From the NCBI RefSeq assembly GCF_016679925.1, contig NZ_JAEQBW010000004.1:62001-126000 (forward strand): DNA of 64,000 nt, written 5' to 3'. Both the position numbers and the translations under genes were made by a program. Source of the stretch: Marivirga aurantiaca. GTDB taxonomy: Bacteria; Bacteroidota; Bacteroidia; Cytophagales; Cyclobacteriaceae. This document shows, piece after piece, positions 1-36,690 of this stretch (the stretch's first letter is position 1; every line of letters starts with the position of its first letter). The notes beneath the pieces are model-generated. The model saw nothing but the letters and a program-made list of their open reading frames with translations. It did not search any database and had not been told where the DNA came from.

Positions 1-179
1 TGAGTGTTGATTTAAAGGGATTCATAATATTTTGGTAGTTGTTTTTGACTCAACCCAAAAACTATGCCTGTATAACTTTCCTAATAAAAATTCTGATTGG
101 GTATTTCCTATTTTGAATTTTAACGTGAATATAGCCTAACAAAACTCTTAGCTGGTTTTCTTGGTTACTTTAATTAATC

Positions 180-725
180 ATGAAAAACCTCTTCTTTATA
201 TCATTATCCTTCCTGATGGCATGCTCTATCAACACTTCCCGGGAAATAGAGAAAGAAAAACTCACTTTCAATTATCGTGATGATGCTTACATATTTTTCA
301 GAAACATGAGGCAGGCCAGGTACAATCTGGAAGTAATGGAAGAGGCCGGTTGGCGTATTTACCGTCATGAAGATTTTGAAAAGGATACTTCTGAATATTT
401 TTTCACTACCGCCCTGGTAGTTAACTGGCAAGCCAGTAAAGCCTATGCTATTATGGAGTTGCCCGGTCAAATATCAAAAGAAGGGCTAAAAGTATTTTGG
501 AAAGGAGAGGAGACAAATGAACAAGGGGAGATAAGCCTTAGCGGGCTAAGCAGGCAGGCCGAATTAGCATTTTTGACGGATATTTATAATCATATTGTAA
601 AAGATCATTTACTTTATTGGAATCAGGAAAGGAAAGAGAGCGTTGCTTTATTTAAAAATAATGATCAAAAGGAAGCTTTCAGGGTAAGTATGTATGATTT
701 TTACAGGCTGACTGGTTTGTTATAA
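180..725 (+). CDS. hypothetical lipoprotein, 181 aa
   Basis: A lipoprotein signal is visible at the N-terminus: MKN, a short hydrophobic stretch, then the lipobox LMAC with Cys15. The mature part is mixed and soluble, rich in aromatic residues, with no motif I recognise. It would sit in the cell envelope facing the periplasm or the surface. The SIMPL-domain gene follows on the same strand 56 bp after the stop (measured to that gene's likely start), so the two may share a transcript. I cannot assign a function. An opposite-strand ORF inside it is a shadow. Confidence 0.75.
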   Translation: MKNLFFISLSFLMACSINTSREIEKEKLTFNYRDDAYIFFRNMRQARYNLEVMEEAGWRIYRHEDFEKDTSEYFFTTALVVNWQASKAYAIMELPGQISKEGLKVFWKGEETNEQGEISLSGLSRQAELAFLTDIYNHIVKDHLLYWNQERKESVALFKNNDQKEAFRVSMYDFYRLTGLL

Positions 726-9829: not shown

Positions 9830-10447
9830 ATGATGCTGATATTTCCCGGGCTGGTGATTTCCTTTGTCTTGCTGATTGCGAGCTACTACTATTATCAGAA
9901 TAAGCAGGAAAATATGGGAGGTAAAATATCTGTGGCAAAAGCATTTTGGCTTGGCTATGCTTTGTTTAATTATTTTATTTTTACAGTTTTTCTGTATTTT
10001 TTTCTGGAAAATCAGATATTTCAATCCGTACTATTTCTTATTATTTGCGTTTTTTATTTCAGGGCATTGTTCCAGGGGTTTTTGATGTTTGTTACCCGGA
10101 ATTGGGTACCCAACTATGGAATGATGTATAATATAGTCTGTATCATTATTATATTCAGCGCACTGATCAAACTCTACCTTTCCTTTGGCTCTTTGAAGGA
10201 AGAAGGTTTGGTTCTCACATCATTATTTCTTTTTAAATTAATTCTAATACTCTTTACAGATACCATCTATGCCTATAAATTCAAACAGCTCATCGGCAAC
10301 AACACCAAAGGAAGAAAAGCTATTTGGTATGCTTCCGATGAAAGGAAATTTGAAAAAATCAACCGCCTCACTATAAGAAATAACATTATATTTAGTTTTA
10401 TTAGTATTACATTAATTATCCTAATGATTTTATATGATAAACCTTAA
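9830..10447 (+). CDS. small polytopic membrane protein, unknown function
   Basis: A 205-aa protein made almost wholly of hydrophobic helices, five or six by eye (residues about 3-20, 38-60, 64-85, 98-118, 127-147 and 183-201), with a short polar loop around residues 150-180 (KQLIGNNTKGRKAIWYASDERKFEKINR). I recognise no family. It is the first gene of the long run. Its last 14 bp overlap the start of the UnbU/UnbV-like fusion gene, so the two products are probably translationally coupled and may form one membrane complex. Confidence 0.75.
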   Translation: MMLIFPGLVISFVLLIASYYYYQNKQENMGGKISVAKAFWLGYALFNYFIFTVFLYFFLENQIFQSVLFLIICVFYFRALFQGFLMFVTRNWVPNYGMMYNIVCIIIIFSALIKLYLSFGSLKEEGLVLTSLFLFKLILILFTDTIYAYKFKQLIGNNTKGRKAIWYASDERKFEKINRLTIRNNIIFSFISITLIILMILYDKP

Positions 10448-13211
10448 GCCCAATACCTGGACCGGTAGTTACAGTATACCACCTGCCGGGGATGTGCGCT
10501 GGCGTGCGTTTGGCTTGTTATTCCTTTACCTGATCTTAGGAATGACTATTCTGGGCTTTAGCCGCCAACCTTTACATATTTTCATCCTGATTGCTTCAGG
10601 AGCCCTTTTGGATGTGGTGCTGAGTGGTTTATTGAGATCAAGGAAAATTTTCCCGCTTTCTGCGATGATTTCCTGTAGTTCTCTGGCACTCATATTAAAT
10701 TGGTCATTCGGCATGCATAATTTATGGTTGCCGGTATTTATCTGTATAGCTTCAAAATACCTGATTACGTTAAATGGGAAACATTTCTTTAACCCATCTT
10801 TATTCGCCATTTGTGTTTGCCTTATTTTAGGGGAAGAGTTTGTTACCTTGGCACCGGCATACCAGTGGTATGGCAGCGCAGAGACGGCCTGGTTAATGGG
10901 CTTTTTTATAGTTACAGGAGCACTGTTCTTATTTGTTTTTAAAATAAAAAGAGGCTGGCTCATTGGCTCTTTCTTAATTACTTTTTTCCTGCAAACACTT
11001 TACAGGGCATATGTAATGGAGCACATTATTCCATGGGAAACTTTATTCCTGAGCTCCCTTACTTCCCCGGCATTTTATCTGTTTACTTTCTATATGATCA
11101 CCGATCCTGCTACAAGCCCCGGAAAGCGATCAGACCAAATTTTGGTGGGTGTGTTCATCGCCCTTTTCGATTTGCTCTTTCATTTAAAATATAGCCTTTA
11201 TACTTTCTTTTTTGCGGGATTAACGGTTGCAGGGATTCGTTATATATATTTTCTTGCTAAACAATTATTGAGTAAAGACGGATTTTATCCTTTATCTGCC
11301 ATTAAAGCAAAGGCCTCTCATGCAGGATTGTTGCTCGTTTTTTTTATTCCCGTTATACTGGCCTTTCAGTTGAATAAAAACGAAGCCCTAATTCCTCATG
11401 AGGATTTATTTAGTCTTGAAAATGTAACTCACGAACATAGTGGTCTGGGCTGGGCAAAAGGAGATTTGCTGGAAAATACAGATCCAAGACTGGCGCATGT
11501 AGCCAAATGGATACTTTCGGTTGGAGATGCTTCTGCAATAGCGGATGTTAACCATGATGGCTTGCCTGATATTTTTCTCACACAACCTTTGAAAACAGCA
11601 GAATGGAAAGCTAAGCTTTACATTAACCAAGGCGATTTTAGGTTTGAAAAAGTAAGTATTCCTGATTTGGATCGGTACCTGGATGACCCTGTAAAATATG
11701 GAGTGCCTGGTTTTGCTTTCTTTATGGATTATGACAATGATGGTGACAAGGATTTGTTTGTAGGTTTTGGGTTCGGAAAATCGCACCTTTTTGAGAATAA
11801 AAGCACAGCTGATGGCAAAGTTGTTTTTAAAGAAGTGAAAGTGCCGTTTTTGGAAAACCAGCATACGATATGTCTTGCCGCCAATGCTTTCGACTTTGAT
11901 AATGATGGTTTTCTTGATTTGTTTTTAACCAATACTTTGCCTACACATTTACCAGGCTATAAAGAAAATCCTGAACCATTAAACATCTTTAAACTGCCCG
12001 AAGCTGCTTATGAGGGGGATGAAAGAATGTTTCAGTTTATGCATGAAAGCTGGCACAATGCCAATAATGGAGGCTTAAATTACCTTTTGAAAAACACCCG
12101 TGATTCCTCTGTTTTCAGTTCATTGAACAATGATGAAATAGGCTTGCAGGCTACTCGATGGAGTCTTGCTGTTGGCACACTGGACATTAACAATGATGGC
12201 TTTACTGATATTTATGTAGCCAATGACTTTGGACGGGATGATTGTTACCTGAACATGGAAGGCAAATATTTTGAAAGGCAGGAGGGTGAATTTTATGGTG
12301 ATTTAGGATTAGATACCTATAAAGGCATGAATGTATCTGTGGGTGACCTTGACCGGAACGGGAAAGAAGATATTTACATTAGCAATGTACACCATGCTAT
12401 GCAGGCAGAAGGTAGTTTGTTGTGGATGAATTTTACAGAAGATGAAGCCCCAAAAGCCAATTTTAAGGAACAAGCCTCTCAACTAAATGCACTCAACACC
12501 AATCGTTTCGGTTGGGGAGCTGCTGTTGGCGATCTTAATTTGAATGGTTGGCAGGATGTTATCCAGGCTAATGGGATGGTGGATGCGTCATGGGATCCTA
12601 AATTTGAAAAACCTACCGATTATTGGTACTACCAGGCGCAAATAGCCAGAACTGGTCCAGAAGTCCACAGCTTTGCCAATAAATGGGCGGATATTAGGGG
12701 ATGTTTTATTTATCCTAATGAACCGGATAGGGTGATGATCAATAATTATGGAAAGGGTTTTGTGGATCTGGCAGAACAGTTGAATTTAACCCATCAAGCG
12801 AATACGAGAGGTGTAGCCTTGGCAGATTTTGACAACGATGGTGATCTGGATATTTTAATTACTAATCAGTTTGGGGCGCCAATTCTATATAAGAACAAAC
12901 TGGAAAACCACCAGTGGCTGGCAGTGAGCCTTTCTGGCAATGGCATTACAACCAATTCCGATGCGGTAGGGTCTAAAGTATGGATAAGCTATACCCTGGA
13001 AGGTGAAAAGCAAACACAATACAGGGAGCAGCGGTTGGTAAATGGATTTAGCGCCATGGGGGATAATCGTTTATTGTTTGGCCTCGGACATAAAAAGTAT
13101 AAGGTGGAAAATTTACAATTGAAAGTGCAATGGCATAATGGAGAACAACAAGTGCTGAATGTAGATGAGCTAAATCAGTACCTGGAAATCAATCAGGGAC
13201 TTAAATTATAA
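10434..13211 (+). CDS. NqrB/RnfD-like (UnbU-like) membrane domain fused to VCBS repeats and an ASPIC/UnbV domain
   Basis: A 925-aa fusion. Residues about 20-305 form an integral membrane domain with 9-10 helices and the NqrB/RnfD hallmarks FNPSLFAIC and FYMITDPATSPGK. From about 330 comes a predicted extracytoplasmic beta-propeller with seven calcium-type DxDxDG repeats near residues 369, 431, 485, 583, 638, 700 and 798 (for example DYDNDGDKDLF, DFDNDGDLDIL). The C-terminal 100 residues are an ASPIC/UnbV domain (HQWLAVSLSGN...SDAVGSKVWI...REQRLVNGFSAMGD). In enediyne gene sets UnbU (RnfD-like) and UnbV (ASPIC) are separate neighbouring genes; here they are one polypeptide. The canonical S/TGAT flavin-attachment motif is not evident; the nearest match is YGSAETAW. 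An electron-transfer or membrane-anchoring role is inference. Confidence 0.88.
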   Translation: MINLKPNTWTGSYSIPPAGDVRWRAFGLLFLYLILGMTILGFSRQPLHIFILIASGALLDVVLSGLLRSRKIFPLSAMISCSSLALILNWSFGMHNLWLPVFICIASKYLITLNGKHFFNPSLFAICVCLILGEEFVTLAPAYQWYGSAETAWLMGFFIVTGALFLFVFKIKRGWLIGSFLITFFLQTLYRAYVMEHIIPWETLFLSSLTSPAFYLFTFYMITDPATSPGKRSDQILVGVFIALFDLLFHLKYSLYTFFFAGLTVAGIRYIYFLAKQLLSKDGFYPLSAIKAKASHAGLLLVFFIPVILAFQLNKNEALIPHEDLFSLENVTHEHSGLGWAKGDLLENTDPRLAHVAKWILSVGDASAIADVNHDGLPDIFLTQPLKTAEWKAKLYINQGDFRFEKVSIPDLDRYLDDPVKYGVPGFAFFMDYDNDGDKDLFVGFGFGKSHLFENKSTADGKVVFKEVKVPFLENQHTICLAANAFDFDNDGFLDLFLTNTLPTHLPGYKENPEPLNIFKLPEAAYEGDERMFQFMHESWHNANNGGLNYLLKNTRDSSVFSSLNNDEIGLQATRWSLAVGTLDINNDGFTDIYVANDFGRDDCYLNMEGKYFERQEGEFYGDLGLDTYKGMNVSVGDLDRNGKEDIYISNVHHAMQAEGSLLWMNFTEDEAPKANFKEQASQLNALNTNRFGWGAAVGDLNLNGWQDVIQANGMVDASWDPKFEKPTDYWYYQAQIARTGPEVHSFANKWADIRGCFIYPNEPDRVMINNYGKGFVDLAEQLNLTHQANTRGVALADFDNDGDLDILITNQFGAPILYKNKLENHQWLAVSLSGNGITTNSDAVGSKVWISYTLEGEKQTQYREQRLVNGFSAMGDNRLLFGLGHKKYKVENLQLKVQWHNGEQQVLNVDELNQYLEINQGLKL

Positions 13212-13215
13212 AGCG

Positions 13216-14133
13216 ATGTTAAAGAACCAATCAAATGACATAAAGGCAATGGCCATTATTTTATGGCAGGTAGCCTTTACTTTTTTTGCCTTGTTTGTTT
13301 CCTTTAAAGGGGAAAACCTTGTTTGGTTCCTGGGGCAGGTGTTACTTGCTATCAGTATCTTTCAATGGTTTGTTATTCATCATGACTTGGCACATGATAG
13401 CTTTTTTAAAACCAGGGTCTTAAATAAAATATTTGGTCATATATCTTCCATCCCAACTTTAATACCATTTTTTAGCTTTAAATTGGCTCATCATCAGCAC
13501 CATGTCTGGACAGGTTGGCGAGATAAGGATCCGTCCAACCCTGAAAATTATTTTAAAACACCTCCATCATGGATTATCAGAATCGTTAATTTTTGTTGGA
13601 AATTCTGGATTCCTTTAATGTCACCGGTATTTGTAATTCAGAACTTCTGGAACATGCCAAGATTATTCAGAAACTTTAAATCAGCTGTGGCCAGAGCCGG
13701 AATAGTTTTGAGTATTGTACTCGTTTTCTCGATCTACGTTTTTCTGTTTGCTGGTTTTGGTAAGTTGATGCTGGAGTGTTGGCTAACAGCATTTATATTA
13801 TATATGATTTTTTCTGATTTGGTACTGATGAGCCAACATACAGATATTGAATGGCAAACTGCCGGAAAAAAAGAGGTCACTTCTTTCCAATATGCTGAGC
13901 AGTCCAATTATACCCGGACGATTATTTACCCGAAGCCTGTATCAAGATTTTTATTTTACAATTTCGACAGGCATGGACTGCATCACCAGAACCCTTCTAT
14001 TCCTACTTATCAACTTGGGAGCTTACCACAAACCCCTCATTTAAATGTGGGTTGGTGGGAATGGCTCAAAAAAGCAAAAAGTCTTTCAGCTTTTTCATTA
14101 TTGTATGTAACACCAAAAGCAAGTAAATCATAA
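13216..14133 (+). CDS. membrane fatty-acid-desaturase-family protein (first of two)
   Basis: A 305-aa FA_desaturase-type protein with the three diiron histidine boxes: HHDLAHDSFF near residue 56, LAHHQHHVW near 93 and DRHGLHHQNP near 253. About four membrane helices lie between them. The family inserts double bonds or hydroxyl groups into acyl or isoprenoid chains using O2 and electrons from a redox partner. It starts 4 bp after the UnbU/UnbV-like fusion gene. No ferredoxin or cytochrome b5 domain is fused, so electrons must come from elsewhere, possibly through the NqrB/RnfD-like neighbour. The substrate is unknown. Confidence 0.9.
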   Translation: MLKNQSNDIKAMAIILWQVAFTFFALFVSFKGENLVWFLGQVLLAISIFQWFVIHHDLAHDSFFKTRVLNKIFGHISSIPTLIPFFSFKLAHHQHHVWTGWRDKDPSNPENYFKTPPSWIIRIVNFCWKFWIPLMSPVFVIQNFWNMPRLFRNFKSAVARAGIVLSIVLVFSIYVFLFAGFGKLMLECWLTAFILYMIFSDLVLMSQHTDIEWQTAGKKEVTSFQYAEQSNYTRTIIYPKPVSRFLFYNFDRHGLHHQNPSIPTYQLGSLPQTPHLNVGWWEWLKKAKSLSAFSLLYVTPKASKS

Positions 14134-14162
14134 GATTTCGAAATGATTGACAGATTTTAATA

Positions 14163-15017
14163 GTGAAAAACTCTAAAGACATAAGAACACTTTGTTTTCT
14201 TCTGATAATAGTATCAGTGAGAATAGTGCTTTGGTGGAAGGCCCCTAATTACTTCCTGATTTGGCTTCCATTCATTATCGCTTCAGTTTTTATACTTTAT
14301 AGCATCAAACATAACCATCTCCATTATTCAGTTTTTAAGTCAGCAGTACTTAATCGTATTTATGAAAATATTTTAGGGGTTTTCACCGGTACCAGTATGA
14401 ATGGGGCTTATGTTATTCACCTTGTAAATCATCATAAAGAGAATAATAATTCGAATGATTGGGGAAATACTGCTAGGTATCAGCATCGCTCTGAAGCAAT
14501 TAATCTTATGAAATATGCATGTATGACACCTTTAAAGTTTCTGAAAGCGAAACGGAAATGGCTCCAAAATACTGCACATAAAAGTATAGGATTGGTAAGC
14601 AAAACAGAAAGTTGGATTATCATGATCGTTTATTTTGTGATGCTGATCCTGAAATTTGAGGCAACCATTTTGTACATAATATTACCTCATTTGCTAGGGC
14701 AGTTAGTATTGGTCAGTTTTAATTATTTCCAACATGCTGATTGTGATCCACTTTCAGAATACGACCATTCCCGAAACTTCACGGGCAAGTTCATTAATTT
14801 TTTTAATTTTAATAATGGCTTTCATACCGCTCATCATCACCATCCGGCAGCACATTGGAGCGAGTACAAAAGAATTCATCTTTCAATGCAGCATAAAATT
14901 GCCGCCAGTTTAAATGAGCGAAATTTTATTTACTATTTTATTCGTCTGCTATTGAGTAGAAATCAGAAGATGACAAATCAGAAAAGCAATGAAATCCTTC
15001 ACAAAATAAATGTGTAG
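14163..15017 (+). CDS. membrane fatty-acid-desaturase-family protein (second of two)
   Basis: A 284-aa integral membrane diiron-type protein with His boxes KHNHLHYSVF (near residue 49), LVNHHKENN (near 88) and GFHTAHHHHPAAHW (near 220), plus FNYFQHADCD, which adds a further His. Four or five hydrophobic helices surround them. Box spacing and wording differ clearly from the preceding desaturase, so this is a distinct subfamily rather than a tandem duplicate. The start is a GTG at 14163, and no better ATG is available. It ends 2 bp before the Rieske gene. Hydroxylase, desaturase or acetylenase activity cannot be told apart by sequence alone. Confidence 0.85.
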   Translation: MKNSKDIRTLCFLLIIVSVRIVLWWKAPNYFLIWLPFIIASVFILYSIKHNHLHYSVFKSAVLNRIYENILGVFTGTSMNGAYVIHLVNHHKENNNSNDWGNTARYQHRSEAINLMKYACMTPLKFLKAKRKWLQNTAHKSIGLVSKTESWIIMIVYFVMLILKFEATILYIILPHLLGQLVLVSFNYFQHADCDPLSEYDHSRNFTGKFINFFNFNNGFHTAHHHHPAAHWSEYKRIHLSMQHKIAASLNERNFIYYFIRLLLSRNQKMTNQKSNEILHKINV

Positions 15018-15019
15018 AA

Positions 15020-16072
15020 ATGAGTAAAATGTACAAATCATCAGGTGAATTGGTCAATCATTGGTATGCTGCCGGTCAATCAAAAGCATTTAAAAAAGGG
15101 AAACCACAATCGGTCGTTATTTTTGAAAAGCCCCTGGTGATCTGGCGAATGAAGGATGGTTCATTAACAGTAATGCTGGATCGTTGTAATCATAGGAATG
15201 CTCCTTTAAGTGAAGGAAAAGTGCTGAATGATTGTTTGATTTGCCCCTACCATGGCTGGACCTATAATAAAGAAGGAAAATGTATCGAAATACCTTCTGA
15301 GGGGCCCAATGTAGATAGAATCCCCAATAAAAAAGTGGAGTCATTTCCTTTAAAAGAAGCCTATGGCCTGGTTTGGGTTTGGATGGGAAAGGATAAATCA
15401 CCTACTTCAGCACCTTTTGAAATGCCTGTGATGAAAGAGTTAGGCTGGCATAGCTATTATATGGAGACGAAGTTCAGCAATACGGTTACTGATCTGGTGG
15501 AGAATTTTATGGATGTGCCTCATACTGTTTTTGTCCACAAAGGCTGGTTCAGGGACAGAAAGCAAATTTGTATAAAAGCAAAAGTAGAACGTACGGCTGA
15601 CAGTGTGCTCGTTAGTTATGATCAACCCAATGACTCAATCGGGTTTTCCGGCTGGCTGGTAAACCCTAAAGAGCTACCAATGAAGCATACAGATAATTTC
15701 TATATGCCCAATATTACTAGGGTCGATTATATTTTTGGTGGAAATGAAAGAGGTTTTATTATTACAAGTACATGTACCCCGGTGAGTCCTTATGAAACCA
15801 TGGTTTATACCTTGATCAGTTATAAGTTTGGTTGGTTAACACCGATAGCCAAATTGGGCTTGTCAGCATATACACGGAAAGTAATTAATCAGGACGTATG
15901 GATTATGGATGTTCATGGTAAAAACATTCAGAGGTTTGATGAAACGGATTACCACTCCACCCAGTGTGATTTTATGCACTTATACATAGAATCATTGAGA
16001 GAGTATGCAACAAATGCTGATGAGAAATCTATTCCTGAGCCGACTGTAAAAGAGATTGAATTTTGGGTATGA
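15020..16072 (+). CDS. Rieske non-heme iron oxygenase, alpha-subunit type
   Basis: A 350-aa ring-hydroxylating-oxygenase-type protein. The N-terminal Rieske [2Fe-2S] site is C56-x-H58 ... C75-x2-H78 (RCNHRNAPL and CPYHGW). The mononuclear iron site follows as ENFMDVPHTVFVH with N162, D165, H168 and H173. The Asp bridging the two centres is presumably D165. The length fits single-component oxygenases of the PaO/VanA-like group. Such enzymes hydroxylate, demethylate or desaturate small molecules and need an external reductase, which is not encoded nearby. The gene is embedded between the second desaturase and the radical SAM gene (ATGA overlap with the latter). Confidence 0.93.
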   Translation: MSKMYKSSGELVNHWYAAGQSKAFKKGKPQSVVIFEKPLVIWRMKDGSLTVMLDRCNHRNAPLSEGKVLNDCLICPYHGWTYNKEGKCIEIPSEGPNVDRIPNKKVESFPLKEAYGLVWVWMGKDKSPTSAPFEMPVMKELGWHSYYMETKFSNTVTDLVENFMDVPHTVFVHKGWFRDRKQICIKAKVERTADSVLVSYDQPNDSIGFSGWLVNPKELPMKHTDNFYMPNITRVDYIFGGNERGFIITSTCTPVSPYETMVYTLISYKFGWLTPIAKLGLSAYTRKVINQDVWIMDVHGKNIQRFDETDYHSTQCDFMHLYIESLREYATNADEKSIPEPTVKEIEFWV

Positions 16073-17733
16073 TAAAAGCGAATCTTCCAAAGGTTTTAAT
16101 AGTAACAGGAGGGCTTTTGAGCGCAGGTGAGAAGTCCATGTGGAACGCCCTCAAAAAGCAATATAAGCAAGTGAAAGCTGCGAAAGCCCACTGGCTGGAG
16201 ACAAAGATTAAATTGGTAACAGCTGAAATGTTGGTATATGAGAAGCTAAAGAAGAAAAGAGGAAAGCTGGCAGAGTATTTCAAAGGGGAATCTCAATCCA
16301 TACCTGAACTTACCGAAGTAGTGCTTGCAGATTTATTGTATAGGGAAGGAATCCCATTCGAAGCAATTACTTATGATTTGCTCTACTCCAATCCCAAAAA
16401 GGCCAATCAATTACTACAGGACACCCAGGTGGTATTGGCTTCTTCCACCTTACTGCATGATTTGAGCGAACTCATGCCATTGATAAAAATGCTCAAGAGA
16501 GATCATAACAGAATAATTCTTGGCGGGGCTTTATGTGGCAGCCTTTATAGCCACTGGAAAGGGGATAGCTTAGTTGATATAATGGCCATTGGTTATGGTG
16601 AATTCCTGGTTCCTAAAATTGCAGATTGGATTAAATCAGGGTTTAAAGAAATTCGTCCTCCGGAACAAGGAAGAATGATTCAAAAGGAACATACTTTGTT
16701 TTTGTTTAGTGGTGTGCCTGAAAGTCGTGACCTGGATTTTCTTCCTACTCCTGATTGGAGAGTGGCAGAAAGCTACCATCAGCGGAAATTTGAGCATGTT
16801 TATTACGAAAGTGTAAGGGGTTGCCCTTACCGTTGTAGCTTTTGTAATTATCCTTTTCTGTTTGACGATAAGAAATTCAGGACAAAAAGTGCTGAGAAAA
16901 TAGCCGCTGACTGGAAGTTCTACTATGAGGAATTAGGAGTGAAGTATATCACTTGCCTCGATTCATTATTTACCATGCCTAAAAAGCGATTGGTAGAGTT
17001 GTGTAAATTGTTAATAGCACAAAAGACCAATGTAAAATGGATTTGTTATGCCCGGGCGGATGATTTGGCAGATGAGTCTGTGGTGAAACTCATGAAAGCC
17101 GCAGGGGTTTCCCAGGTGCAAATAGGTTTGGAATCCGGCAATCAAATGATGTTGGACCAAATGAACAAACGTTGTACGGTTGAGCAAAATCTACAGGCGA
17201 TAAAGAATTGCAGGAAGCATGGGGTGATCAGTATGGTGTCATTAATAGTGGGCTATCCGGGGGAAACAGAAAAAACCTTAAAGGACACATTGAATTTTAT
17301 GCGTGAGGCACGGCCGGATTTTCATTTTTTGGCTACTTTTAGTGTACGGATTGAAGATGTACCCATGTTTAAGGCACCTCATAAAGAACGTTTTGGACTG
17401 GAAAAGATGGACAATCCTTACAGCTTTGCTCCTTACTGGAGGCACAATACCATGAGTTGTTCTGAAGTGGGAGAGCATGTACGAATCCTTGGCATGCAAT
17501 TGTGTGAAGAAAAAATCTCATTGGAAGGAGCGCTTTTTTATCAGAATATTTTACATTATGAACCGGTTATGAAAGAGGAATTTCTTGAGTATCAGCAATC
17601 GCTGATCAAGGGAAACACTTATTTAAAAAAGGTGTTCAATTGGATCAATCATAAGGTGGATCTAAAATTACAAAAAGATATGAAAAAGGTATTCCCTGAC
17701 AATAAGGAACAGCTACAACAGATAAAAGCTTGA
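16069..17733 (+). CDS. B12-binding-type radical SAM enzyme
   Basis: Starting at the ATG that overlaps the Rieske stop (ATGA), the protein is 554 aa. Residues about 90-185 form a Rossmann-like cobalamin-binding-type region (VVLASSTLLHDLSELMPLIKML...IILGGALCG...IMAIGYGE). The radical SAM core follows with C252-x3-C256-x2-C259 (RGCPYRCSFC) and later SAM-barrel strands (GVSQVQIGLESGNQMML, SLIVGYPGETEKT). The architecture matches BchE/P-methylase-like enzymes that methylate or cyclise unreactive carbons. The DxHxxG motif of base-off B12 binding is not evident, so actual cobalamin use is uncertain. About 100 C-terminal residues are family-specific. Confidence 0.9.
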   Translation: MIKANLPKVLIVTGGLLSAGEKSMWNALKKQYKQVKAAKAHWLETKIKLVTAEMLVYEKLKKKRGKLAEYFKGESQSIPELTEVVLADLLYREGIPFEAITYDLLYSNPKKANQLLQDTQVVLASSTLLHDLSELMPLIKMLKRDHNRIILGGALCGSLYSHWKGDSLVDIMAIGYGEFLVPKIADWIKSGFKEIRPPEQGRMIQKEHTLFLFSGVPESRDLDFLPTPDWRVAESYHQRKFEHVYYESVRGCPYRCSFCNYPFLFDDKKFRTKSAEKIAADWKFYYEELGVKYITCLDSLFTMPKKRLVELCKLLIAQKTNVKWICYARADDLADESVVKLMKAAGVSQVQIGLESGNQMMLDQMNKRCTVEQNLQAIKNCRKHGVISMVSLIVGYPGETEKTLKDTLNFMREARPDFHFLATFSVRIEDVPMFKAPHKERFGLEKMDNPYSFAPYWRHNTMSCSEVGEHVRILGMQLCEEKISLEGALFYQNILHYEPVMKEEFLEYQQSLIKGNTYLKKVFNWINHKVDLKLQKDMKKVFPDNKEQLQQIKA

Positions 17734-17740
17734 TTTGAAA

Positions 17741-18496
17741 ATGAAATTCAATCTCCAATTCCAATTAGTAGAAGTAAAAGATATTCATAACGTCCAGCGA
17801 AAGCGGATGTTTGAGTTGATGCATGCCTGCTATAATAAGGTAGAGGAGAGAAATTTTTTAGCAGATTTGGAAAAAAAGCATTGGGCAGGCCTCATTAGCG
17901 ACCAAGATGGAACGGTTCAGGGCTTCACTACTTTTGCAATTAACCCTAAAGGTGTTGGGGGAGAAGAATATCATGTGCTTTTTTCCGGTGATACGGTCAT
18001 TGCTCCTGAATATTGGGGCACCCAAATCATGAGAGATGGCTGGTGTAAGGCAGTAGGAAGTATCATTGCCGCAGACCCTTCCAAACCATGGTACTGGTAC
18101 CTATTATCCAAAGGTCACCGCACCTACATGTTTTTGCCTTTGTTTTTTAAAGAGTATTTTCCCTCTATAGAAAAAACTGCGGTTGAGGGGAAATTGGAAA
18201 AAATTGCCGCAGAAGTTTCAGCAAAACTTTATGGGCATTACTGGAAGCCAGATGAGGGAGTAATTCGCTTTGATGAAAGCCAGGGGGAGTTAAAGCAGGA
18301 GTGGATTGAAGCCTCCTACCAAAAGAAAGGAAGCAGTTTTGTTCAATTTTTCTTGCAAAAAAACCCGGGTTTTCATCAGGGAGAGGAATTAGTTTGTGTA
18401 GCACAACTACATCCTGACAATATTCTTCGTTCGGCAAAAATGATTGTGTTGGAAGGAATGGAGCATCCTATAAAGTTAAAGTTGGAGTCGAAATGA
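17741..18496 (+). CDS. GNAT-like protein, putative acyltransferase
   Basis: I use the ATG at 17741 (251 aa); the frame also opens at a TTG 6 bp earlier. By eye it follows a GNAT-like order: an N-terminal helix (MFELMHACYNKVEERNFLADL), a strand pair with substrate contact (GLISDQDGTVQGFTTFAI), a central strand with an acidic residue (YHVLFSGDTVIAPEYWG) and a helix (IMRDGWCKAVGSII). The acetyl-CoA P-loop Q/RxxGxG/A is not clear. It is nested between the radical SAM and GH3 genes (7-bp gap and 4-bp overlap), so it surely belongs to the pathway. An acyl transfer role is inference. Confidence 0.7.
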   Translation: MKFNLQFQLVEVKDIHNVQRKRMFELMHACYNKVEERNFLADLEKKHWAGLISDQDGTVQGFTTFAINPKGVGGEEYHVLFSGDTVIAPEYWGTQIMRDGWCKAVGSIIAADPSKPWYWYLLSKGHRTYMFLPLFFKEYFPSIEKTAVEGKLEKIAAEVSAKLYGHYWKPDEGVIRFDESQGELKQEWIEASYQKKGSSFVQFFLQKNPGFHQGEELVCVAQLHPDNILRSAKMIVLEGMEHPIKLKLESK

Positions 18497-20049
18497 AAGC
18501 CTCTTTAATCAACAAAGCATGGTTGCTTAGCCAGAAAAGCCTTTCAAAGCAGTTTCACCAAAACGCCCACCACTGTCAGCAAACCCAGGACTTGATTTTA
18601 AAGCAATATTTACAATTAAATGCAACTACGGATTTTGGAAAAAAACATCAATTTGACCGGCTGAAATCTTATCAGGATTATGTACAAAATGTCCCTGTAA
18701 TTGAAGAGTTTTCTGAGATGGAGAATTTTATCAATGACATGAAATCCGGGAGAGAAAATGTTTTGTTTGCCGGTAAAACCCTCTTTTTTGAAACCACTTC
18801 GGGTTCTGGCTCCACCCCTAAATTTATCCCCTATAATACCCGGCTAAAGAAAGAATTCAAGGCGGCAGTAGCTGTTTGGATGTGGGATCTATATCGGACT
18901 GACCCTAAAATATTCTCAGGAAAAGCTTATTGGTCCTTATCTCCTGCATTGAAGGAAACAAGTACTACATCAGGTGGTATTTCCATTGGAACCGGAGATG
19001 ATTCGGCTTATTTTGATCCCGTCACAGCTTTTTTGTTGAAGCAAATTTTTGCTGTTCCTCCGCAACTTAATAAAATTCAGGATGTACACGAATTTTATAT
19101 TCAAACATGGTGCTATTTACTCAGAGCCTCAAACTTGAGTTTTATTTCCGTTTGGAGCCCTCAGTTTTTGCTTCGTTTGATGGATTTTTTTGTGGAAAAT
19201 TTCCAACAGATCAGGAAAGAAAGTGGAATGTCTTTGGCCAGGGCAGATTTAGTTTGGCGGGCTATTGAAGAAAAACACTTAAGCCTCGATTTGTTGTTTT
19301 CAGGCTTGAAATTGATTAGTTGCTGGACACAAGGCCACTCCAAAATATGGATTAAGAAGCTGAAAGAAATAACAGGGGCCGTCCCCATTCAGGGCAAAGG
19401 ATTGTTGGCCACTGAGGGTGTTGTAAGTGTGCCCTTAGGTATGAACCAGCATGTGCTTTCCTATACTTCCCACTTTTACGAATTTAAAAGCGAAGAAGGG
19501 AAAGTTTGTATGGCAGATGCGCTTCGTCAGGGGGAAACTTATGAAGTAATAATTACCACAGGAGGAGGCTTATATCGCTATAACACCCATGATTTAGTGA
19601 AGTGTAGTGGTTTCTACAAAAGTGTTCCCTGTCTTGAATTTCTGGGTCGCTCAGGAAATATCAGCGACCTGGTTGGGGAGAAATTGGCAGAGAGCAGCCT
19701 GGTTGAAATTTTTCATCAGGCGTTGAGCACTTTTCCAAGTATTGAAGCCTTATATCTTTATTCCGAAAGACAGCAGCATATGGCAGGCTATGTATTGGTT
19801 ATCGAGAGTTCCACAACAATTGAATGTGATAATATTGTCCGCTTTGTTGAAGAACAAATGATGACCAACCCATATTATAAGCAAGCTATCAGCTCAGGTC
19901 AGTTGAATTTACTAAAAGCTGCTTCAGTTGATGGAGATTTTACACGCAGACTAACCCGTTATTATCAATCAACTAAAGGAATTAAAGATGGAGATCTAAA
20001 GCTTCCTCTGCTTTTTCCATCAGGTTTTTTAGACCCAATTCTCAAATGA
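18493..20049 (+). CDS. GH3-family acyl-adenylating enzyme
   Basis: A 518-aa GH3 auxin-responsive-promoter-family protein, a branch of the firefly-luciferase/ANL adenylate-forming superfamily. It starts with the family layout QTQDLILKQYLQLNATTDFGKKHQF, has the nucleotide-binding loop ETTSGSGSTPKFIPY at residue 100, a second motif GLLATEGVVSVPLG, TTGGGLYRYNTHDLVKCSG, and FLGRSGNISDLVGEKLAE near residue 385. Plant GH3 enzymes activate acids with ATP and join them to amino acids. The bacterial members are little studied. Here it is the only visible adenylating enzyme of the run and may release or amidate the final acid. Start and previous stop overlap as ATGA. Confidence 0.9.
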   Translation: MKASLINKAWLLSQKSLSKQFHQNAHHCQQTQDLILKQYLQLNATTDFGKKHQFDRLKSYQDYVQNVPVIEEFSEMENFINDMKSGRENVLFAGKTLFFETTSGSGSTPKFIPYNTRLKKEFKAAVAVWMWDLYRTDPKIFSGKAYWSLSPALKETSTTSGGISIGTGDDSAYFDPVTAFLLKQIFAVPPQLNKIQDVHEFYIQTWCYLLRASNLSFISVWSPQFLLRLMDFFVENFQQIRKESGMSLARADLVWRAIEEKHLSLDLLFSGLKLISCWTQGHSKIWIKKLKEITGAVPIQGKGLLATEGVVSVPLGMNQHVLSYTSHFYEFKSEEGKVCMADALRQGETYEVIITTGGGLYRYNTHDLVKCSGFYKSVPCLEFLGRSGNISDLVGEKLAESSLVEIFHQALSTFPSIEALYLYSERQQHMAGYVLVIESSTTIECDNIVRFVEEQMMTNPYYKQAISSGQLNLLKAASVDGDFTRRLTRYYQSTKGIKDGDLKLPLLFPSGFLDPILK

Positions 20050-20056
20050 ATACTTT

Positions 20057-21157
20057 ATGATAAAGATAGCTCCTTACCAGCCAGAATTTGAAGAAGGAAT
20101 AAAAGCACTTTGCCGGATACCGGTATCCGGCAATATTTCACTTGCCCTGGAGCGGGAGCCGAATTATTATGCAGGGGCCTGCCTGCAATGTGAAAAGCCT
20201 GAAATATTTGTGGTGTATGAGGAAAGTCTTTCAAAAGTGTGGGCTGTTTTTAATGCTGGAAAGAGAAGAGTGTGGTATAGGAACGAAGTGGTTGAGGTGC
20301 GCTATTTATGCGATTTAAGGATTCACCCTGAAAAACAACAAAGCCCGGCACTTTACCTGATCGTAAAGAAATTCAGTGAAATAACTGCAAATGATCTATT
20401 GCCAGCTCAAACCGTAGTGTTTGCTGATAACCATAAGATGTTAGCAATAATTGAAAAGCTGTCTCAAAGAAAAAAGACTTCTCAACTGCCTTTTTATCAT
20501 TTGATAGGAGGGTTGACTACTTATATGTTAGGGTTTAATTCCCCCAAAGAAACTAAGGAGAACCTTGACATAAGAAGAGCTACAAATGATGATATTGAAA
20601 CCATGCAAGCTTTTTTTGATAAGGAAAGCCCTCGAATCAACTACTCTCCTTATTATAATTTTAGTGAATTGGAGAGGCCCTATTACCGTGGATTAAAGAT
20701 CAGTGATTTTTTCCTGGCCTATGAGAAGGAAAAACTGGTTGGGGTTTGTGGCACCTGGGATCAAAGTGGAATAAAGCAGACGCGCATAGTGGGATATAGC
20801 AGGACTTATCAAATCATCAAACCACTTTATAATTTATTGGCATCAATTTTTGGCAGGCCTTTATTACCTGAAGCAGGTAAGATTTTAACTTATTTAAATG
20901 TACATAGTATTTTAGTTGAAGAGAGCAGAACCGAGGTGTTTGAACAACTTATACTGAGGATACAAAAGGAACGTTATAACAATGGATTTGACTATTTATT
21001 ATGTAGTTTAAGTGAGGAGGGTCCGTTAACCAAGGCCTTAGATAAGCTGGGGGCGGACAGAAAAATCAAAGGAAAATATTATTGTGTTAATTTTGGAGAA
21101 CCACTTCCCCAAGAATTTAAAAGTGGACATTTTTATGTGGAGTCGGCAAGGATTTAA
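20057..21157 (+). CDS. GNAT-family N-acyltransferase, apparent tandem domains
   Basis: A 366-aa protein whose first part reads as a GNAT fold: YQPEFEEGIKALCRIPVSGN, then the motif A strand VEVRYLCDLRIHPEKQQSPALYLIVKKF near residue 88. A second GNAT-like start appears at about residue 172 (LDIRRATNDDIETMQAFFDKE), with YFLAYEKEKLVGVCGTWDQS-type strands after it. A two-domain acyltransferase is therefore likely. It follows the GH3 gene by 7 bp. A natural proposal is transfer of an acyl group to, or from, the product activated by GH3. A 77-bp gap separates it from the next lipoprotein. Confidence 0.82.
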   Translation: MIKIAPYQPEFEEGIKALCRIPVSGNISLALEREPNYYAGACLQCEKPEIFVVYEESLSKVWAVFNAGKRRVWYRNEVVEVRYLCDLRIHPEKQQSPALYLIVKKFSEITANDLLPAQTVVFADNHKMLAIIEKLSQRKKTSQLPFYHLIGGLTTYMLGFNSPKETKENLDIRRATNDDIETMQAFFDKESPRINYSPYYNFSELERPYYRGLKISDFFLAYEKEKLVGVCGTWDQSGIKQTRIVGYSRTYQIIKPLYNLLASIFGRPLLPEAGKILTYLNVHSILVEESRTEVFEQLILRIQKERYNNGFDYLLCSLSEEGPLTKALDKLGADRKIKGKYYCVNFGEPLPQEFKSGHFYVESARI

Positions 21158-21234: not shown

Positions 21235-21627
21235 ATGATAAAACTCAAGTATAGCATTTTGTTATTGCTAATTTTTAGTGTTGTTTTTACTTCCTGTAAA
21301 AAGGAAGATGTTGCTGCAACCAGTATAGTTAAATGCTGGACATTATATGAAACAGAGGGAAATAGATCAACATTTTTACTTTGTGACAATGAAAACCTTG
21401 GAACAAGCTGGTACAGGCAATCCTATCATTTACAAGCGGATAATGTATGCTCTTATACAGTATTATCCCCTTCAGATGCCCATTATACCGAGGAAGGCAC
21501 TTATGAATACTCGGATACTACAAAGTTTCTGACTATAAAAGATGAGTGGGGCGATGTGGTGGTAAAATATTCAGTAATTAGCATCAAATCCAATGAACTG
21601 GTGATGGAACTTTTATTCTCACAATAA
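21235..21627 (+). CDS. hypothetical lipoprotein, 130 aa
   Basis: A lipoprotein signal ending FTSC (Cys21) is followed by KKED and a strand-rich mature domain of about 110 residues (KCWTLYETEGNRSTFLLCDN...GTYEYSDTTKFLTIKDEWGDVVVKYSVISIKSNELVMEL). This pattern resembles the lipocalin-like lipoproteins common in Bacteroidota. The resemblance is by pattern only. It is on the same strand as the long gene run, 77 bp after it, and ends in a strong terminator, so it may be co-transcribed. Its part in the pathway is unclear. Confidence 0.75.
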   Translation: MIKLKYSILLLLIFSVVFTSCKKEDVAATSIVKCWTLYETEGNRSTFLLCDNENLGTSWYRQSYHLQADNVCSYTVLSPSDAHYTEEGTYEYSDTTKFLTIKDEWGDVVVKYSVISIKSNELVMELLFSQ

Positions 21628-21629
21628 AA

Positions 21630-21657
21630 AACCCGCAAGGAAGCTTTCCTTACGGGT
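21630..21657. terminator. bidirectional terminator closing the long gene run
   Basis: Inverted repeat AACCCGCAAGGAA / TTCCTTACGGGTT with one mismatch and a 2-nt loop, T-rich afterwards on the plus strand (GGTTTTAT) and A-rich before. It separates the run from the convergent acyl-CoA dehydrogenase gene. Confidence 0.8.
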
Positions 21658-21687
21658 TGGTTTTATCAGTTAAGGCTCTTTAAGTCC

Positions 21688-22827
21688 TTACTTTAATATA
21701 GATCGGCTGATTACCAGTTTTTGAATTTCTGAGGTTCCTTCCCCAATAGTACAAAGCTTGGAATCACGGTAGTATTTCTCAACCGGATAATCTTTGGTAT
21801 AGCCATAGCCACCAAAAATCTGAACAGCTTCAGTAGAAATCCTTACGGCTGCTTCGGAAGCATGGTACTTAGCCATGGCAGATTCTTTGTTGACACTTTT
21901 GCCCCTATTTTTTAAGTCTGCCGCCTGGAAAGTCAATAATTTAGCAGCTTCCAGCTCAGTAGCCATGTCAGCTAATTTGAATGCAATTCCCTGGAAATTG
22001 GAAATAGGCTGATTGAACTGGTGTCTTTCTTTGCTGTAAGCCAAAGCGGCATCATATGCACCTTGTGCAATTCCTAAAGAAAGTGCGGCAATGGAAATTC
22101 TGCCACCATCTAATACTTTCATGGACTGGATAAAACCCTGACCCACTTCTCCTAAAATGTTATCTTTATGGATGCGGCAATCTTCAAAAATCATTTCAGC
22201 CGTTTCAGAAAGTCGCATCCCTAATTTATTCTCTTTACGACCACCCTTGAAGCCTTCAGTACCACGTTCTACTACAAAAGCAGTCATGCCATGAGAATCG
22301 CCCACTTCACCTGTTCTTACAATTACCACTGCAACATCACTTGAAACGCCATGTGTAATCCAGTTTTTGGCACCATTAATCACCCAATAGTCACCATCCT
22401 GCACAGCAGTAGTACGCATGTTTCCGGCATCAGAACCTGTATTAGGTTCGGTGAGTCCCCAGGCACCAATCCATTCGGCAGTGGCTAATTTGGGCAACCA
22501 TCTTTTTTTCTGTTCCTCATTGGCAAAGGTCAAAATATGGCCCGTGCATAAAGAGTTATGCGCTGCCATAGACAAACCTATGGATGGATCAACTTTGGAA
22601 AGTTCTAAAATGGCTGTAACATACTCTTCGTACCCAAAGCCTGCACCCCCATATTCCTGAGGTACTATCACACCCATTAAACCAAGACCTCCTAACTTCT
22701 TCATTACTTCAATGGGAAAATATTGTTCTTCATCCCATTGATCCCTAAAAGGTGTAATTTCTTTTGCACCAAAGTCTCTGATCATTTGGGCAATCATTTG
22801 TTGGTTCTCGTTCAATCCAAAATCCAT
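21688..22827 (-). CDS. acyl-CoA dehydrogenase
   Basis: A 379-aa FAD-dependent acyl-CoA dehydrogenase catalysing the first step of beta-oxidation or of branched-chain amino acid breakdown. Typical segments are GLTEPNTGSDAGNMRTTA, WVINGAKNWITHG, the FGGYGYTKDYPVEKYYRDSKLCTIGEGTSEIQ region with catalytic-base neighbourhood, and RQFNQPISNFQGIAFKLADM-type helices. Length is normal. A 26-bp dyad 75-100 bp upstream looks like a TetR-type operator overlapping the promoter, suggesting acyl-CoA- or metabolite-responsive control. The chain-length preference is not deducible. Confidence 0.96.
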   Translation of the reverse strand: MDFGLNENQQMIAQMIRDFGAKEITPFRDQWDEEQYFPIEVMKKLGGLGLMGVIVPQEYGGAGFGYEEYVTAILELSKVDPSIGLSMAAHNSLCTGHILTFANEEQKKRWLPKLATAEWIGAWGLTEPNTGSDAGNMRTTAVQDGDYWVINGAKNWITHGVSSDVAVVIVRTGEVGDSHGMTAFVVERGTEGFKGGRKENKLGMRLSETAEMIFEDCRIHKDNILGEVGQGFIQSMKVLDGGRISIAALSLGIAQGAYDAALAYSKERHQFNQPISNFQGIAFKLADMATELEAAKLLTFQAADLKNRGKSVNKESAMAKYHASEAAVRISTEAVQIFGGYGYTKDYPVEKYYRDSKLCTIGEGTSEIQKLVISRSILK

Positions 22828-35370: not shown

Positions 35371-36690
35371 ATGTCCGAATCGCACAATATAGAATACAAA
35401 TCCACCTGGAGGGAAGAATACCTGAAATGGATATGTGGCTTTGCCAATGCCAACGGGGGCAGGCTTTATATAGGCATTGACGATAAGGGAAAGACAACAG
35501 GCATTGATAATCACGAAAAACTACTGGAAGATTTACCTAACAAGTTTCGGGATATTCTGGGCGTGTACGCAGAAGTGAACCTACAAAGTGAGAAAGGGAA
35601 GTACTATCTTGAAATTATAGTTCCTCGTTTTGATGTGCCTATTTCAGTAAGAGGAAAATACTATGTCCGTACCGGAAGTACTTTGCAGGAATTGAAAGGC
35701 CCAGCTTTAAATGAATTTATTCTTAAACGGACCGGAAAAACATGGGATGACATTCCGGTTGAATTGGCTACTTTACAAGATGTTGATGAGGATGCCATAA
35801 AGTTTTTCGCTAAAAAAGCCCTTAAAAGCAAACGTATTGTACCGGATGCTACGGAAGAAGACACAAAAACACTTTTGAACAACCTGCATCTTTTCAGCAA
35901 CAATGGAAAGCTGAAAAATGCTGCACTACTGCTTTTCGGAAAAGATCCCCAAAAGTATTTCACGTCTGCCTATTTCAAGATCGGGCGGTTCGGAGACTCG
36001 GATGCCGACCTGAAATTTCAGGATGTGGTGGAGGGCAACCTGATCGAAATGGTGGACAAGGTCATGGAAATACTCGAACGCAAGTACCTGATCAGGCCGA
36101 TACGTTACGAAGGTATGCAGCGTGTGGAAGAATTGGAATATCCAGAACCCGCTTTACGAGAAGCCATCCTGAACGCCATTGTTCACAAGGACTACAAAGG
36201 CACCACCATCCAACTCAGCGTGTATGACGATAAACTGATCCTTTGGAATCCCGGTATGTTGCCGGATGAATTGAATATTGAAATGCTCAAAGGAAAACAT
36301 CCCTCCCATCCACGCAACAAGAACATTGCAGACATTTTCTTTAAAGCCGGTTACATTGAAGCCTGGGGAAGGGGTATTTCCATGATAATGGATACCTGCC
36401 GAAAAGCCGGACTTCCCGAACCGGCTATTGAAGAAGTGGCAGGTGGTATGCAGATTACCTTCCTGAAAGACATATTTTCTGAGGACTACTTCAAGCGAAT
36501 GGGACTAAATGAACGGCAAATTGAGGCAGTCAAGTATGTAAAAGAGAACGGGAAAATTACAAATAGTGATTATCAGGAATTGCTAGGAGTTGCCAGAAGA
36601 ACCGCAACGAGGGATTTAGCAGAATTGGTGGAAAAAGAGATATTAAAATCTTCTGAAACAAGAGGAGCTGGAGCATATTACAAATTTTGA
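35371..36690 (+). CDS. AlbA/Schlafen-type ATP-binding regulator
   Basis: A 439-aa protein of the AlbA_2/Schlafen-core group. The N-terminal AlbA_2 domain shows the hallmarks ESHNIEYKSTWREEYLKWICGFANANGGRLYIGIDDKGKTTGI, a short linker, then a GHKL-like ATPase segment (YPEPALREAILNAIVHKDYKGT...LWNPGMLP...EAWGRGISMIMDTC). It ends in a winged helix (KYVKENGKITNSDYQELLGVARRTATRDLAELVEKEIL). Such proteins are found as regulators or defence-linked factors on mobile DNA. The middle of the gene (about 35.96-36.47 kb) is visibly richer in G and C than its neighbours, consistent with recent transfer. A degenerate tandem repeat starts right at its stop codon. Confidence 0.88.
   Translation: MSESHNIEYKSTWREEYLKWICGFANANGGRLYIGIDDKGKTTGIDNHEKLLEDLPNKFRDILGVYAEVNLQSEKGKYYLEIIVPRFDVPISVRGKYYVRTGSTLQELKGPALNEFILKRTGKTWDDIPVELATLQDVDEDAIKFFAKKALKSKRIVPDATEEDTKTLLNNLHLFSNNGKLKNAALLLFGKDPQKYFTSAYFKIGRFGDSDADLKFQDVVEGNLIEMVDKVMEILERKYLIRPIRYEGMQRVEELEYPEPALREAILNAIVHKDYKGTTIQLSVYDDKLILWNPGMLPDELNIEMLKGKHPSHPRNKNIADIFFKAGYIEAWGRGISMIMDTCRKAGLPEPAIEEVAGGMQITFLKDIFSEDYFKRMGLNERQIEAVKYVKENGKITNSDYQELLGVARRTATRDLAELVEKEILKSSETRGAGAYYKF

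Follow-up and report, generated by a model that had tools for sequence, protein, structure and literature searches.

Gene content and organization of the locus

Nine ORFs of 205-925 aa, designated p1 to p9, fill positions 9830-21157 on the + strand of the window, i.e. the whole 64,000-nucleotide stretch of Marivirga aurantiaca DNA that was analysed. These genes and a convergent gene further downstream are as follows:

p1, 9830..10447, + strand: predicted membrane protein of 205 aa, without a Pfam family
p2, 10434..13211, + strand: 925-aa protein with an NQR2/RnfD-like membrane domain, FG-GAP repeats and UnbV_ASPIC (Pfam)
p3, 13216..14133, + strand: membrane fatty acid desaturase family protein (Pfam FA_desaturase)
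p4, 14163..15017, + strand: second membrane fatty acid desaturase family protein (Pfam FA_desaturase), with conserved histidines
p5, 15020..16072, + strand: Rieske oxygenase of the VanA_C type (Pfam Rieske and VanA_C)
p6, 16063..17733, + strand: radical SAM enzyme (Pfam), resembling PhpK, BchE and AprD4 far below the family cut-offs
p7, 17735..18496, + strand: single-domain GNAT fold (predicted structure), without a family model; anchor of the cross-phylum family
p8, 18493..20049, + strand: GH3-type acyl-acid amido synthetase (Pfam GH3), belonging to a separate clade
p9, 20057..21157, + strand: tandem GNAT with an N-myristoyltransferase-like fold (predicted structure) and a fixed C-terminus
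acyl-CoA dehydrogenase gene, 21688-22827, convergent to p1-p9: a hairpin (21630-21658) sits behind its end

A preliminary description of this DNA proposed a same-strand run of nine genes with gaps of -14 to +29 bp. The ORF coordinates confirm this, the gaps from p1 to p9 being, in order, -14, +4, +29, +2, -10, +1, -4 and +7 bp. The same coordinates leave only one of the several ATGA overlaps it mentioned, a 4-base overlap at the p7/p8 junction. The hairpin, which had been taken for the terminator closing the run, scores as a terminator on the - strand only and lies behind the convergent acyl-CoA dehydrogenase gene, therefore it is not the end mark of a p1-p9 operon. Between p9 and this hairpin there is a lipoprotein ORF (21235-21627), lipocalin-like and with a weak match to the BSAP-5i immunity family, for which no match was found in the corresponding locus of a sister species (G006). 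In GC content (34-42% per kb) the cluster is inconspicuous. Elsewhere, the window encodes a 1230-aa protein with lamin-tail and bacterial Ig-like domains (40643-44335) and a Schlafen/AlbA_2 domain protein with a RecG-type C-terminal domain (35371-36690).

Pfam searches confirmed the assignments of the UnbV_ASPIC membrane fusion, the two desaturases, the Rieske oxygenase, the radical SAM enzyme and the GH3 protein. No Pfam family was found at E 0.01 for p1, p7 and p9; the suggested GNAT nature of the last two is borne out by their predicted folds (see below). In ten window proteins scanned against Pfam, with filters that drop weak matches, there was no match to PKS, NRPS, carrier-protein, thioesterase or transporter families, nor to KS, condensation or AMP-binding domains. 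An NRPS/PKS route was rejected on these grounds, which also make the GH3 and GNAT proteins the best candidates for amide formation. The absence of PKS, NRPS, carrier-protein, thioesterase and transporter genes, as originally stated, thus holds for the ten proteins; for transporters it does not hold in general, as a relative in Acinetobacter baumannii carries efflux genes.

Occurrence in close relatives

The complete order p1-p9 recurs in a genome of Saprospiraceae (locus L052), and in the sister species G006 p1, p2 and p4-p9 follow one another in this order at 62-88% identity, without p3. Gene order is thus kept in near relatives; its loss would have spoken against the proposal of the preliminary description. 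Among 146 relatives, a full-length p8 orthologue (66%) was detected only in G006 besides the M. aurantiaca genome itself; most of the others contain distant GH3s only, and distant GH3s are also encoded at two further places in the M. aurantiaca genome. Orthologues of p6 (E up to 1e-60) and p2 (E up to 1e-100) were confined to the same 2/146 genomes, the own genome included. In a sample of 296 genomes of the phylum, the p6 orthologue was present in one, M. aurantiaca. Weak matches to p9 appeared in 5/395 genomes besides the own one, and one of them adjoins a radical SAM gene (L042).

In both M. aurantiaca and G006 the cluster is flanked by xerD on one side and by the acyl-CoA dehydrogenase gene on the other. 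In G008 about 1.4 kb separate these two genes, and in G004 3.6 kb; in five further members of the genus that were compared, no acyl-CoA dehydrogenase gene was found within the stretch taken. This comparison indicates that the genus is not uniform in carrying the cluster, which was either gained or repeatedly lost.

The p7-GH3-p9 core in 12 phyla

A scan of named genomes with GH3 as the query returned no relatives. It was insensitive, since GH3s turned up later beside p7. The scan with the p7 alignment yielded 261 encoding loci, the nearest named relatives being Saprospiraceae and Segetibacter, both Bacteroidota. All locus counts given here use the best 80 of these 261. The neighbourhoods of these 80 contain GH3 (64), Rieske (58), p9 (47), desaturase (36), p1 (26), p2 (20) and radical SAM (19) genes, one desaturase profile covering both p3 and p4. 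Because ORF calling in the fetched loci was mechanical, some ORFs are overlong at their start and some genes may have escaped notice. Absences are lower bounds, because several loci are cut by contig ends.

p7, GH3 and p9 occur together in 46/80 loci (best 80 of 261), as they do in the window. The p7 loci with GH3 span 12 named phyla (best 80 of 261), across which the p7-p8-p9 core is accompanied by Rieske, desaturase or radical SAM genes. Of the 64 loci with both genes, 40 have GH3 directly next to p7 and 55 have it on the same strand (best 80 of 261). The same set includes 18/64 p7-GH3 loci without p9, some of them cut by contig ends. A further 16/80 p7 loci (best 80 of 261) are without GH3, and there p7 adjoins, e.g., an AMP-binding protein or TldD/PmbA pairs.

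The arrangement of the core and its accompanying genes differs among lineages. Several Gammaproteobacteria have the order Rieske-p1-p7-GH3-p9-p2-desaturase, Saprospiraceae p1-p2-desaturases-Rieske-(radical SAM)-p7-GH3-p9, and Synergistales, Hyphomicrobiales and others p7-GH3-radical SAM pair-p9, while in Pseudomonas and Burkholderia desaturase/p7/p9 is followed by desaturase/GH3/Rieske. A further variant contains two Rieske genes together with genes for a protein of about 394 aa (weak AurF match) and one of about 700 aa (amidohydrolase, weakly Mpo1-like). PAP2-type, alpha/beta-hydrolase, fatty-acid hydroxylase and SnoaL-like proteins are recurrent neighbours in relatives; named mostly by sequence reading, they suggest lipid chemistry. 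One locus of a Hormoscilla MAG (L088:10669-18789) has a short GH3 ORF and a p2 homologue split over three ORFs, which reflects decay or an assembly error.

Searches of plasmid-collection records with tblastn revealed relatives of the core genes together in three species. In Citrobacter portucalensis, p7, GH3 and p9 are found with five radical SAM genes, a PAP2 phosphatase and a desaturase; no E. coli copies of this version were matched by megablast. In Burkholderia arboris they are found with a Rieske gene and a desaturase-matching ORF whose match to PAP2 was below the cut-off. In A. baumannii the core is accompanied by MFS, HlyD, outer-membrane efflux and SurE genes, and no oxidative gene was recognised beside it. 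This efflux set next to a core without a recognised oxidative gene suggests that the core alone most likely makes a secretable molecule, which oxidation cassettes decorate elsewhere. p4 had no match in the plasmid-collection records.

Several p7 loci with other partners were also observed. In Thiolapillus and Sedimenticola (L065, L069, L071), p7 and a Rieske gene occur with an ORF of 1337-1577 aa and a 484-aa pyridine-nucleotide oxidoreductase; L065 additionally encodes a SnoaL-like protein and two TldD/PmbA peptidases. These loci possibly represent another pathway using p7. Three alphaproteobacterial loci (L081, L102, L107) carry p7 without GH3 and have in common proteins of about 1000 and 1130 aa; in L107 the gene directly upstream of p7 encodes an AMP-binding enzyme.

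Pairwise distances of the core proteins are correlated, with r values of 0.765 for p7-p8 (59 loci), 0.780 for p7-p9 (47) and 0.834 for p8-p9 (45), and none of 999 permutations gave values as high. Therefore the three genes share their inheritance; physical interaction of their products does not follow from this. The dispensability of p3, which is missing in G006, and the other gene orders in far relatives would be compatible with p1-p9 being unrelated genes adjacent by chance. Against this stand the nine-gene order kept in L052, the association of p7 with GH3 in 12 named phyla, the correlated core distances, and a control sequence of about 222 kb without the cluster, in which seven of eight profiles gave zero matches. 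The three p9 matches in this control all lie in loci fetched for their remote p9 similarity. We consider a chance association highly improbable.

The GH3 protein p8

Phylogenetic analysis placed 61 cluster GH3s, the window p8 among them, and 27 generic GH3s from related genomes on opposite sides of one branch with a support of 100. The tree was built from 61 of 70 GH3 matches (score >400, length <=680) and from the generic GH3s of 27/28 loci. Relative to the 27 generic GH3s sampled, the cluster GH3s are a separate clade.

According to the accessible text of PMC12493201, the characterised bacterial GH3 OlsH converts ornithine and a free fatty acid into N-acyl ornithine. The OlsH/OlsI ornithine-lipid pathway of Singulisphaera thus resembles the present system in that a fatty acid and an amine are joined as an amide by a bacterial GH3. 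As far as that source describes it, the pathway is without the GNATs, Rieske and radical SAM enzymes and p1/p2 of our cluster, while the nine genes described here include no alpha/beta-hydrolase (Pfam), unlike the OlsH/OlsI pathway. Against the NCBIfam OlsH model p8 scored 41 bits, below the cut-off of 620. The OlsH reaction may thus not carry over to p8, and ornithine-lipid synthesis as such was rejected because p8 is below this cut-off and outside the generic GH3 group.

In a wider sense, the locus might encode a membrane aminolipid pathway in which GH3 would form an N-acyl amino acid lipid kept in the envelope, comparable to the OlsH product, with acyl chains tuned by desaturases and by the Rieske and radical SAM enzymes. 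OlsH, itself a GH3, starts ornithine lipid synthesis (accessible part of PMC12493201), and lipids are also suggested by the desaturases found here and by PAP2-type and hydroxylase-like genes nearby in relatives. On the other hand, p8 is far from OlsH in score and lies outside the generic GH3 group, the pathway is rare in relatives (2/146 genomes), unlike a housekeeping lipid, and the A. baumannii relative has an efflux set. We therefore regard an envelope aminolipid as a rather unlikely product.

The plant enzymes JAR1 and GH3.15 have the GH3 domain in common with p8 and are distant in sequence; GH3.15 was matched at E 2e-15 in a sequence search. The compounds that JAR1 joins are an amino acid and an oxidised derivative of a fatty acid (PMC12493201). 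In the accessible part of another paper, a GH3 gene of A. baumannii is named merely as a predicted interaction partner.

The GNAT proteins p9 and p7

The AlphaFold model of p9 (pLDDT 93.4; alignment of 41 homologues and the window protein) was compared with known structures using Foldseek, where N-myristoyltransferases (NMTs) and tandem GNATs ranked first. In VIA-align, used for a second look at the Foldseek matches, all 50 entries listed for p9 were NMTs, with 11-13% identity in the structural alignment and a best Z of 22.5 (rmsd 3.6, 300 residues, model 1..366). The predicted model has the tandem GNAT fold over the whole chain, as in NMTs, and its last residue, 366, aligns near the chain ends of the human (496), yeast (455) and Candida (451) enzymes. 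No significant match of p9 to NMT was found in a profile search of PDB sequences, where NMT chains appeared at E 0.5-0.65.

In all 52 usable p9 proteins, exactly four residues follow one acidic column (Glu in 50, Asp in 2), the last of them being Leu, Ile, Val or Met. This count covers 52 of 53 matches, the one left out being a short contig-end fragment; an earlier count, which included three p9-like genes outside clusters, gave 55/55. The GH3, p7, Rieske, p1 and p2 proteins of the same loci have ragged C-termini with many tail lengths. The p9-like tandem GNATs outside the cluster (L043, L044, L046) show the same chain end after the acidic column (Asp, Asp and Asn, respectively).

The C-terminal residue of yeast NMT, L455, can provide its carboxylate as the base, and the review stating this (PMC4964394) calls a C-terminal carboxylate base unique to NMT among GNATs. 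The fixed C-terminus of p9 fits such a base: the position is conserved and the catalysis is predicted. Mycobacterial Eis, another GNAT, likewise uses its own C-terminal carboxylate, therefore the trait may not be special to NMT. The eukaryotic enzyme and p9 thus share the whole-length fold, the aligned chain end and the fixed C-terminus, and they differ in that p9 has no significant sequence match to NMT and sits in a biosynthetic cluster. From these features, we infer that p9 probably works like NMT; by its sequence it would not be classified as one.

The whole-length NMT fold would also agree with p9 and p7 acylating a peptide or a protein, as the eukaryotic NMT does, with the oxidative enzymes acting on the attached chain. 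We find this improbable, as the census of gene neighbourhoods (ORFs >=70 aa) brought up no recognisable conserved peptide gene and GH3 enzymes, e.g. OlsH, act on small acids.

The p7 model (pLDDT 94.4; alignment of 53 homologues and the window protein) has a GNAT fold with a Z of 13.4 to GCN5 and similar values for many acetyltransferases and LasI. A p7 profile gave no match to PDB sequences up to E 5. A role of p7 as an autoinducer synthase does not follow from this, because LasI (Z 12.1) is tied with many GNATs. By itself, the fold does not point to a particular reaction for p7.

Oxidative enzymes and the membrane proteins p1 and p2

The nearest solved sequences of p5 are SxtT and SxtDIOX (E 3e-30). 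The likeness to the saxitoxin pathway is limited to this Rieske enzyme, as no other cluster protein returned such names in the scans run. Residues C56, H58, C75, H78, D165, H168, H173 and D317 of p5 are >=90% conserved, and we take them to be the Rieske Cys/His and mononuclear-iron ligands. In p6 the radical SAM cysteines C254, C258 and C261 are conserved to the same degree (>=90%), and eight histidines of the desaturase are >=85% conserved; these, too, are presumably ligands. The description of p6 as a "B12-type" radical SAM enzyme stands in its second part (Pfam), the B12 label being a matter of resemblance, with no B12-binding Pfam family matched; its best NCBIfam match is PhpK (191 bits, cut-off 600). 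Among 20 homologues of p2, 225 positions are >=90% identical, which indicates that p2 is under strong constraint.

Radical SAM loci without a Rieske gene in the sequence covered make up 11 of 19 (best 80 of 261 p7 loci). Five of these 11 come from lineages that we take to be anaerobic or fermentative, and six do not; two of the 11 also contain a desaturase. p1 or p2 is present in 25/58 Rieske loci versus 0/11 radical-SAM-only loci (best 80 of 261; Fisher p 0.005, ignoring kinship), and also in L097 and L116, which have neither Rieske nor radical SAM genes. On the p7 tree, the supported branches require two or more switches between Rieske and radical SAM states.

Proposed pathway and its relation to known systems

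Based on these observations, we suggest that the nine genes form one biosynthetic cluster belonging to a cross-phylum family with a p7-p8-p9 core, and that its product is most likely an N-acyl amide tailored by oxidation and made without NRPS or PKS; we give this reading an even chance. Weighing against it are the distance of p8 from OlsH, the p7 loci without p9 or GH3, the absence of p3 in G006, the mixed origin of the radical-SAM-only loci and the lack of a significant sequence match of p9 to NMT. Gene content and conservation, the shared inheritance of the three core genes, the separation of the GH3s and the fold and chain end of p9 come from computation; for the substrates, step order and product, as well as the roles of p1, p2 and p7, we propose the following. 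p9 would acylate the amine of an amino acid or a small amine with a fatty acyl group supplied by CoA or ACP, its own C-terminal carboxylate acting as the base. p3 and p4 would desaturate the acyl chain, and p5 and p6 may oxidise or rearrange it. p8 would adenylate a free carboxylate and couple it to an amine, giving an amide, and p7 might perform a further acyl transfer. p1 and p2 would assist, perhaps as a redox partner, in those steps at the membrane that depend on O2. Elsewhere, radical SAM pairs occupy the position that the Rieske gene has here, and Rieske/desaturase and radical SAM modules would be swapped between lineages. Acyl-chain modification with amide formation by GH3, as initially suggested for this locus, fits the evidence; the chemistry is largely upheld and the proposal as a whole partly supported, the membrane-lipid substrate, carbon-carbon bond and ester that it also named being no more than conceivable.

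Of the systems compared, the afc antifungal lipopeptide cluster of Burkholderia is alike in its small acylated product and desaturase-like enzymes and in the lack of a large NRPS (accessible part of PMC12186527). As described there, its machinery consists of a fatty acyl-AMP ligase together with an adenylation-domain protein and a carrier protein, and GH3 goes unmentioned in that part of the text; it was rejected as a match. No description of the p1-p9 cluster was found in searches of one library of open-licence PMC papers, which agrees with the initial view that this is not a familiar natural-product class; subscription journals lie largely outside this library, so the novelty is provisional.

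A broader and more tentative reading, which we consider possible, is that the family represents an unnamed NRPS/PKS-free class spread across phyla, with a core of an NMT-like acyltransferase, a dedicated GH3 and a new GNAT, and with interchangeable Rieske/desaturase or radical SAM cassettes, whose products would be oxylipin-amino acid amides paralleling jasmonate conjugates.

If these proposals are true, there exists a biosynthetic class across about a dozen phyla that is easy to overlook, because p7 and p9 match no family model and GH3 bears a plant name. They would also add a bacterial enzyme family working like the eukaryotic N-myristoyltransferase. Furthermore, the clusters would constitute a natural comparison of O2-dependent and radical SAM chemistry on one scaffold.
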